This document shows positions 34,562 to 36,033 of a DNA stretch of 64,000 bases, one piece after another. This stretch comes from Symbiobacterium thermophilum IAM 14863 (lineage in GTDB: Bacteria > Bacillota > Sulfobacillia > Symbiobacteriales > Symbiobacteriaceae). A program made the translations under genes and the position numbers. The notes beneath the pieces are model-generated. The model ran no database searches, was not told where the DNA came from, and saw nothing but the letters and a program-made list of their open reading frames with translations. The first letter of the stretch is position 1. Every line of letters begins with the position of its first letter. Location of the stretch: assembly GCF_000009905.1 (NCBI RefSeq), contig NC_006177.1, positions 1,364,001 through 1,428,000 of the forward strand, written 5' to 3'.

Positions 34562-35158
34562 ATGACGCTTGGCTTGACCCCTGAGGAGGTGCTGGACATC
34601 CTGCGCGCCACCGGGGCCCTGCTGGAGGGCCACTTTCAGCTGACTTCGGGGCGCCACTCGGACCGCTTCTTCCTCATGCCGCACACGCTCCAGCACCCTC
34701 TGCAGACCGAGCGGCTGTGCCGCGCCCTGGCGGCACGGTTTCAGGAGGACGAAGTGGAAACCGTCGTGGGACCGGCGACGGGCGGCATCATTCTGGCTTA
34801 CGAGGTGGCCCGCCAGCTGGAGCGGCTGACCGGTCGGCCCGTCCGGGCCATCTTCACGGAGAAGACGGAGGACGGCGGCATGGCGCTGAAGCGTCAGTGG
34901 CGGCTGCGGTCCGGCGAACGGGTGTTGGTGGTGGAGGACGCGATCACCACCGGCGGGTCGGTTGTCAAGGCCATCGCAGCCCTTCAGGCGTATCAGCCGG
35001 CGCTGGTCGGCGTCGGCTGCATCGTGGACCGCTCACGGGGCGCCGTTGATTTCGGCGTGCCCCTGCGCCCGCTGATCCGGGTGGACGTGGAGTCCTGGCC
35101 GCCGGATCGGTGTCCGCTCTGCCTGGCCGGGGTGCCTGTGGTGAAGCCGAAGGCGTAG
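34562..35158 (+). CDS. pyrE: Orotate phosphoribosyltransferase
   Basis: A 198-residue enzyme joining orotate and PRPP to make OMP. The PRPP loop is VLVVEDAITTGGSVVKAI near residue 120, and FTEKTEDGGMALKRQW is the flexible loop region. GHFQLTSGRHSDRFFLMP near residue 20 is the family N-terminal block. It is the last gene of pyrRBCKDE; the PyrF needed for the next step is encoded at 18028. GGAGGAGG precedes ATG 34562, which I prefer over an upstream in-frame GTG. Confidence 0.96.
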   Translation: MTLGLTPEEVLDILRATGALLEGHFQLTSGRHSDRFFLMPHTLQHPLQTERLCRALAARFQEDEVETVVGPATGGIILAYEVARQLERLTGRPVRAIFTEKTEDGGMALKRQWRLRSGERVLVVEDAITTGGSVVKAIAALQAYQPALVGVGCIVDRSRGAVDFGVPLRPLIRVDVESWPPDRCPLCLAGVPVVKPKA

Positions 35159-35185
35159 TTAGCACTCATCGTCTCCGAGTGCTAA
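35159..35185. promoter_or_regulatory. CIRCE element (HrcA operator)
   Basis: TTAGCACTC (35159-35167), nine bases, then GAGTGCTAA (35177-35185): a perfect nine-base inverted repeat with the canonical nine-base spacer. It starts right at the end of pyrE, lies eight bases upstream of a -35 box and 71 bases before the fmdB-type start. HrcA would bind it as a repressor. Confidence 0.93.
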
Positions 35186-35192
35186 CTGCCCC

Positions 35193-35221
35193 TTGAATCT
35201 GTATTCCCACCCAGGTAAAAT
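35193..35221 (+). promoter_or_regulatory. Promoter of the FmdB-type zinc ribbon gene
   Basis: TTGAAT (35193-35198) and TAAAAT (35216-35221) are separated by exactly 17 bases, the strongest-looking sigma-A promoter in this part of the window and immediately downstream of CIRCE. Confidence 0.8.
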
Positions 35222-35256
35222 TACGTCATGATTCCTCAGCAAGGGGGGAGACAGGC

Positions 35257-35532
35257 ATGCCGATCTACGAGTTCAGGTGCAACGCATGCAATCACCTCTT
35301 CGAAGAACTGGTCCCGCTGAATACCACGGGTGAGAATCAGAAGTGCCCTGAGTGCGGGCACGTTGGCGCAAGGCGGCTGGTCTCCGCCTTCGCTGCGCAC
35401 GGTCTGGAGAACGGGCATATTGCGGTGGGGCAGAAGCTGACGAGCCTGGACAAGGCCCGGGCGTCCGGCAAGTCCGAGAGCAAGTCCGGCGAGAGCAAGT
35501 CCTCGGGCGAGAGCGCCAGCAAGTCGGCGTAA
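35257..35532 (+). CDS. FmdB family zinc ribbon protein
   Basis: A 91-residue protein with an N-terminal FmdB-type zinc ribbon: YEFRCNACNHLFEELVPL and QKCPECGHVGARRLVSAF give a CxxC...CxxC site. The rest is a low-complexity tail of Ser, Lys and Glu (GKSESKSGESKSSGESASKS). AAGGGGGGAG precedes the ATG. FmdB proteins are annotated as putative regulators but their role is not known. The CIRCE element and strong promoter upstream imply heat-shock-type control by HrcA. Confidence 0.88.
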   Translation: MPIYEFRCNACNHLFEELVPLNTTGENQKCPECGHVGARRLVSAFAAHGLENGHIAVGQKLTSLDKARASGKSESKSGESKSSGESASKSA

Positions 35533-35547
35533 GCGGAGTCCACTGGG

Positions 35548-35573
35548 GAGAGACCGGCTGCGGCCGGTCTCTC
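35548..35573 (+). terminator. Hairpin after the FmdB-type gene
   Basis: Eleven-base perfect arms (35548-35558 and 35563-35573) with a TGCG loop, 15 bases after the stop. Only TTGCTGTT follows, so termination may be partial. Confidence 0.6.
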
Positions 35574-35626
35574 TTGCTGTTGGATTTCGTCAAGTGGTAT
35601 CATGCTGGGGAGGGAGGGGACACGGA

Positions 35627-35887
35627 ATGCGGCGAATCAAGTACAGAGACGAAGAGTACCTGGTTCACACCCGTTCTGGCATGCGGCTGATCGACGCTCT
35701 GGTGGAGCAGGGCGTCCCCGTCACCTGTGACTGCGACGGCAGGGCGCACACCACCGAGCAGTGCCTGGTGCAGTGGCCGAAGGATACGGCCTTCCTTCTT
35801 ACTGAGCCCACCGAGTTCGAGCGCCGGCAGCTGGGCGACCGCTTGGAGAAGGGGCACCGGCTCGCCTGCCAGGCGCTGTTCAAGTGA
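35627..35887 (+). CDS. Small ferredoxin-like protein with atypical cysteine spacing
   Basis: An 86-residue protein whose C-terminal half resembles plant-type [2Fe-2S] ferredoxins (FERRQLGDRLEKGHRLACQA), while the N-terminal half is a short beta-grasp-like stretch (YLVHTRSGMRLIDALVEQGVPVTC). Cysteines are at residues 34, 36, 46 and 81. The usual first three ligands follow C-x5-C-x2-C, here replaced by C-x-C-x9-C, so cluster binding is uncertain. GGAGGGAGGGG precedes ATG 35627. I cannot assign a partner or pathway. Confidence 0.7.
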   Translation: MRRIKYRDEEYLVHTRSGMRLIDALVEQGVPVTCDCDGRAHTTEQCLVQWPKDTAFLLTEPTEFERRQLGDRLEKGHRLACQALFK

Positions 35888-35897
35888 TCCGCACGTG

Positions 35898-35932
35898 AAG
35901 GGAGCACCGACCCGCGTCGGTGCTCCCTTTTT
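35898..35932 (+). terminator. Intrinsic terminator
   Basis: Fourteen-base perfect arms (35898-35911 and 35916-35929) with a CCGC loop and a TTTTT tail, 10 bases after the stop of the ferredoxin-like gene. Confidence 0.93.
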
Positions 35933-36033
35933 CCGCGCCCATCCCTCCGGTCCGAACGTTGCGGGGCGGGCGGGTGGAGAAGGACCGGCCGCGGTTCGGG
36001 AGGGGGGCCAGGCACCCGTAGGGTCTCTGGACT

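Follow-up and report, generated by a model that had tools for sequence, protein, structure and literature searches.

In the 64,000-nucleotide window of Symbiobacterium thermophilum DNA analysed here (the whole stretch, to which coordinates without a prefix refer), a perfect CIRCE element precedes an fmdB-family zinc-ribbon gene. We propose that this gene is controlled by HrcA and that its product is a Ruc-like redox holdase, a reading to which we give a probability of roughly 0.65. Judged from the sequence, HrcA control of fmdB is very probable, and Ruc-like chaperone activity of the product, which is argued by analogy, falls a little short of an even bet. That HrcA can control a zinc-ribbon protein is already known from Ruc, the one known case of an FmdB-fold protein under this repressor. 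New here are the Symbiobacteriales branch, its seemingly independent origin and the placement of its operator, none of which we found described in the literature searched (no paper among the matches listed joins HrcA, CIRCE and FmdB, and a search on HrcA and Symbiobacterium gave nothing relevant). The features of the locus are as follows.

34562..35158, + strand: pyrE (orotate phosphoribosyltransferase), last gene of the pyr operon (TIGR01367, 1.4e-55)
35159..35185, no strand assigned: predicted CIRCE operator (HrcA site), a perfect 9-9-9 inverted repeat, from its sequence and the conservation of its arms in relatives
35193..35221, + strand: sigma-A-type promoter TTGAAT-17-TAAAAT, with -35 at 35193-35198 and -10 at 35216-35221
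35242..35250, + strand: ribosome-binding site AGGGGGGAG, read directly and kept in same-genus relatives
35257..35532, + strand: fmdB-family zinc-ribbon gene, 91 aa, ATG at 35257, from family profiles
35546..35575, + strand: strong stem-loop 3' of fmdB, 13 bp with a loop of 4 and a weak T-tract, from RNA folding (z -4.06)
35627..35887, + strand: 86-aa NqrF-like 2Fe-2S-ferredoxin-type protein (weak TIGR01941, 3.4e-7)

The pattern that marks the HrcA regulon, TTAGCACTC-N9-GAGTGCTAA at a promoter, is present at 35159-35185, where TTAGCACTC-ATCGTCTCC-GAGTGCTAA matches CIRCE with 0 mismatches, 71 bp from the fmdB start. An earlier note on this DNA had reported a perfect CIRCE (with the span 35159-35257), the TTGAAT-17-TAAAAT promoter and a 91-residue FmdB-type zinc ribbon, and all of these held, the span included. 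Its statement that the repeat begins at the end of pyrE is right in that the two adjoin, the first base of the CIRCE (35159) directly following the pyrE stop TAG (35156-35158), and wrong in so far as the repeat lies outside pyrE, which stops at 35158. The promoter is the sole sigma-70-like site in 34900-36000 (9/12 matches; mean of 0.1 in shuffled sequence), its hexamers and spacing are identical in two same-genus relatives, and its -35 box begins 34 bp past the CIRCE start. The protein scores 65.1 bits against TIGR02605 (FmdB family; cut-off 31.3) and 56.6 bits against Pfam Zn_ribbon_8 (PF09723; cut-off 34.4). Since fmdB is followed by the stem-loop at 35546-35575, a probable terminator, it is probably a one-gene transcript; pyrE is a neighbour, outside the fmdB regulatory unit. 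The 86-aa ferredoxin-type gene adjoins fmdB in four genomes of the family, and a functional link is possible.

The window holds a single CIRCE at <=3 mismatches, that at 35159-35185, and none was obtained in 100 shuffled sequences. Over the whole genome, five sites were found at <=1 mismatch and none in the reversed control. The same genome encodes hrcA (TIGR00331, 1e-106), and the other four sites precede hrcA, grpE, groES and a sugar nucleotidyltransferase gene, so that the genome has the repressor as well as its standard targets, and fmdB and the nucleotidyltransferase gene are the two non-classical CIRCE targets. Within the order, a CIRCE lies 67-108 bp upstream of all six fmdB orthologues found, which come from two families and five genera (the window's own genome, two of the same genus, one further of the same family and two of the second family). 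Four of these elements are perfect, one has 1 mismatch and one has 2, and the arms are kept while the spacers are unrelated. The earlier note had placed fmdB in the HrcA regulon, had proposed a search for CIRCE upstream of fmdB in relatives and had named absence of the repeat from close relatives as a refutation. The repeat proved to be present there, and the placement is supported in silico by hrcA, by the CIRCEs at the standard targets and by this conservation. No orthologue was found in two of the eight genomes of the order, one 77% complete in 820 contigs and the other in 630 contigs; in the latter, where the groES CIRCE is missing too, the absence may reflect assembly loss. The fmdB paralogue of the window's own genome (C1:934191) has no CIRCE before it, nor do about 27 further FmdB genes from the class and phylum; among 398 genomes of the phylum, only the one that holds the window shows the strict joint CIRCE-FmdB pattern. 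On these comparisons, the link between CIRCE and fmdB is not a chance one.

Compared with the classical HrcA/CIRCE regulon (groESL, hrcA-grpE-dnaK-dnaJ), fmdB has the same operator sequence and shares its genome with hrcA, but it is not a classical chaperone gene, and its operator is placed upstream of, or over, the -35 box, unlike the classical sites, which are downstream of -10. At normal growth temperature, HrcA would sit on the CIRCE, about -69 to -43 from the inferred start and beside the -35 box, and hinder RNA polymerase. Heat or protein-damaging stress would inactivate HrcA and, as the known HrcA mechanism suggests, switch on fmdB together with groESL and hrcA-grpE. The product, a four-cysteine N-terminal zinc ribbon with a presumably disordered, highly charged C-terminal tail, may by analogy with Ruc be a small holdase with a redox switch at its zinc site, the zinc being freed on oxidation; the oxidised protein would hold unfolding clients and hand them over to DnaKJ-GrpE. 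We infer HrcA binding, heat induction and chaperone activity alike.

The analogy rests on the layout of the protein. The ribbon is of the form CxxC-18-CxxC, its four cysteines (C8, C11, C30, C33) being invariant in the six orthologues; it is accompanied by an HGLENGH segment and by a cysteine-free C-terminal tail of about 33 aa, 94% of it polar. The AF2 model, a poor one with a mean pLDDT of 56, reaches 66-75 for a block within residues 1-40, shows weak strands in the zinc ribbon only and falls below 50 over residues 48-90, which is consistent with a disordered tail. A search of solved structures with the orthologue profile matched only weak zinc fingers. According to the published account (PMC7448276), Rv0991c/Ruc of M. 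tuberculosis is HrcA-repressed, heat-induced, zinc-binding and SigH-regulated; oxidation turns this zinc-ribbon protein into a chaperone which aids client refolding by the Hsp70 system, and its activity requires the disordered tail. Ruc and the protein described here both carry an FmdB-type N-terminal zinc ribbon, a hydrophilic tail and an HrcA operator (predicted here) at the promoter. They differ in the spacing of the two CxxC pairs, which are 17 residues apart in Ruc (C8, C11, C29, C32) and 18 apart here, and in the promoter, SigH-type for Ruc and sigma-A-type for fmdB. The earlier note had called the role of the protein unknown, a verdict that can be narrowed by way of Ruc as an HrcA-regulated zinc-ribbon chaperone (PMC7448276), and the conserved HrcA/CIRCE arrangement in relatives suggests that the protein is a stress chaperone. 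The genome also carries two Hsp33 genes (C1:1504292-1505125 and C1:2340763-2341578), so the need for another redox holdase is not obvious; they accompany the protein despite the anticorrelation of Hsp33 and Ruc that the same account reports for many lineages (PMC7448276). If the Ruc analogy holds, Hsp33 (HslO) would act in a similar way, through a zinc-cysteine redox switch and a disordered client-binding part (PMC7448276), but the sequences of Hsp33 and the present protein are unrelated and the Hsp33 genes are separate in this genome.

Most FmdB-type zinc ribbons, a widespread group, are annotated as putative regulators, and the protein could instead be a co-factor in transcription or signalling that has no more than heat-shock control in common with the chaperones, its ribbon contacting nucleic acid or protein and not unfolded clients. 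The family is indeed named for a putative regulator. Furthermore, the phylum's FmdBs (TIGR02605/PF09723), which share the domain and are the best relatives by sequence and tree, commonly lack a CIRCE and have short tails (2-20 residues, mostly Cys-rich), and it is with these CIRCE-free proteins that the Symbiobacterium type clusters. Against such a role, the protein has no helix-turn-helix or other DNA-binding part, and the sole studied HrcA-controlled relative is a chaperone (PMC7448276). Moreover, a long polar tail replaces the Cys-rich one in five of the six CIRCE-linked genomes, as in Ruc (23-33 polar residues, no Cys), the exception, G004, retaining a Cys-rich tail behind the weakest CIRCE of the six. 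We regard a co-factor role as unlikely, at somewhat under one chance in three in our judgement, and keep to the HrcA-controlled holdase. The combination of a CIRCE and a polar tail offers a cheap genomic criterion for choosing which FmdBs to assay.

Although the layout is that of Ruc, strict orthology to Ruc was considered and rejected. A tree of 85 proteins, built on 76 columns and hence of limited resolution, splits the Ruc type from the Symbiobacteriales type at 100/99; in it the six orthologues form a clade (100/99), which at 99/92 nests with those FmdBs of the phylum that have no CIRCE. In addition, FKGxG[FW] or a close variant, a criterion of our own derived from the 48 full-length CIRCE-linked proteins of other phyla, is present in 48/48 of these and in 0/6 Symbiobacteriales orthologues. 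Comparison of the Ruc-type and orthologue profiles gave an alignment over the ribbon only (98.4% probability, 43 columns). Since the motif is absent and the orthologues fall on the other side of the 100/99 split, the biochemistry of Ruc may not transfer.

We scanned 84,980 species for a core CIRCE placed 51-111 bp ahead of an FmdB-like start and obtained 51 loci, one of them in the same-genus relative G002 (L095) and the other 50 in Chloroflexota, Armatimonadota/Zipacnadia/WS1, Actinomycetota, Myxococcales (Myxococcota), Riflebacteria and a few unplaced MAGs; many lie on MAG contigs, which makes single taxonomic placements uncertain. The count is a lower bound, since the list lacks M. tuberculosis ruc, whose control by HrcA is experimentally proven, and the strict scan pattern misses two of the six Symbiobacteriales loci. 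By our estimate, random placement of real CIRCEs (about three per genome) would give few such loci. The simplest reading of these sequence comparisons is that the Symbiobacteriales fmdB joined the HrcA regulon on its own and that its product came to resemble Ruc in layout by convergence; a shared origin, with loss of the CIRCE in many lineages, would be less parsimonious. The fullest form of the proposal, in which an ordinary FmdB was recruited separately and converged on the Ruc layout to yield a second heat-inducible redox holdase, with its operator upstream of or over the -35 box, is tentative, and the odds lean against its holding in every part. That HrcA has captured such genes repeatedly (in Symbiobacteriales, Actinomycetota, Chloroflexota, Armatimonadota and Myxococcota) is an argument that many FmdBs serve protein quality control.

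The canonical CIRCEs of these genomes, at groES, hrcA and grpE, number 22; at every one the -35 box starts 39-44 bp ahead of the CIRCE, which thus follows -10. At fmdB, the -35 box starts 34-35 bp past the CIRCE start in four genomes and within the spacer, at +9, in two (G005 and G007; TTGACA/TTGACG), so that, relative to the inferred start, the operator is away from its usual place at or after the start of transcription. A best-promoter scan of the 51 CIRCE-FmdB loci, in which some placements rest on weak hexamers, put the operator upstream in 17/51, mostly in Armatimonadota, and over the -35 box in 21/51. With a CIRCE upstream of -35 and not after -10, strong repression is not guaranteed, and both the contrast with the canonical sites and the recurrence of the upstream placement could be taken to mean that HrcA acts unusually at fmdB, exerting weak, partial or even positive control. 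However, in M. tuberculosis HrcA represses ruc from an operator that overlaps the SigH promoter of that gene (PMC7448276); operator position is thus not strictly regulon-defining. The -35-overlapping sites, for their part, favour plain occlusion. Unusual control is in our view improbable, perhaps a one-in-five matter. In Campylobacter, HrcA footprints span the start site at gro and hrc. Where the -35 box sits in the spacer, ordinary occlusion is the likely means of repression, and we infer the same where the CIRCE abuts it. The shifted fmdB operator offers a clean natural experiment in which two geometries of HrcA repression can be compared within a single cell. Helical phasing of the CIRCE-to-promoter distances (+9, +31 to +35, +42 to +44, +54), hinted at by the best-promoter scan, was considered and dropped; it fails within the order (+9 against +34/35), and the distances are phylogenetically non-independent.

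Two other groups show related arrangements. In Dehalococcoidia and related Chloroflexota (L080, L093, L096, L097, L101, L103, L114, L115), the spacer before ruc contains TTGAC, placing a -35 box inside the operator loop as in G005 and G007. In Myxococcales (L090, L091, L117, L125), the right arm ends in GAGTGCTTGACA, and the last bases of the operator apparently start the -35 box.

The earlier note had also allowed that the repeat might form the 3' hairpin of the pyr operon, and it could be mainly a terminator or RNA stabiliser whose likeness to CIRCE is secondary. Its first base does directly follow the pyrE stop, and the RNA hairpin is a stable one (-16.9 kcal/mol, z -5.7), but there is no T-tract 3' of it, and its arms are exactly those of CIRCE around a 9-nt loop. 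Named by eye from translations, the gene upstream is pyrE in three genomes and a metallo-beta-lactamase-fold-like gene in another, with different genes again in the second family; since these neighbours differ while the CIRCE stays, the operator travels with fmdB. A pyr terminator role for 35159-35185 was dropped on the missing T-tract and the unconserved pyrE neighbour, and we hold it very improbable; with high confidence, on its sequence and conservation, we take the repeat to be a genuine HrcA operator belonging to fmdB. That the palindrome is functionless, a product of chance or recent transposition, is next to inconceivable, given a shuffle expectation of 0 and its retention across two families despite diverged spacers.

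Other CIRCEs in these genomes also precede non-classical genes. The fifth site of the window's genome, C1:1248241-1248267 (L006:2742-2768), has 1 mismatch and precedes a mannose-1-phosphate-guanylyltransferase-like gene in canonical geometry, with TTGCTG-17-TACAAT ahead of the site; in G007, apparently the same kind of gene (L062) is preceded by a degenerate CIRCE (3 mismatches). Finally, in G005 and G006, of the second family, a perfect CIRCE lies between divergent genes (L055:1501-1527 and L050:978-1004) which resemble a glycosyltransferase and an FAD-dependent oxidase, a candidate for a further non-classical HrcA target.
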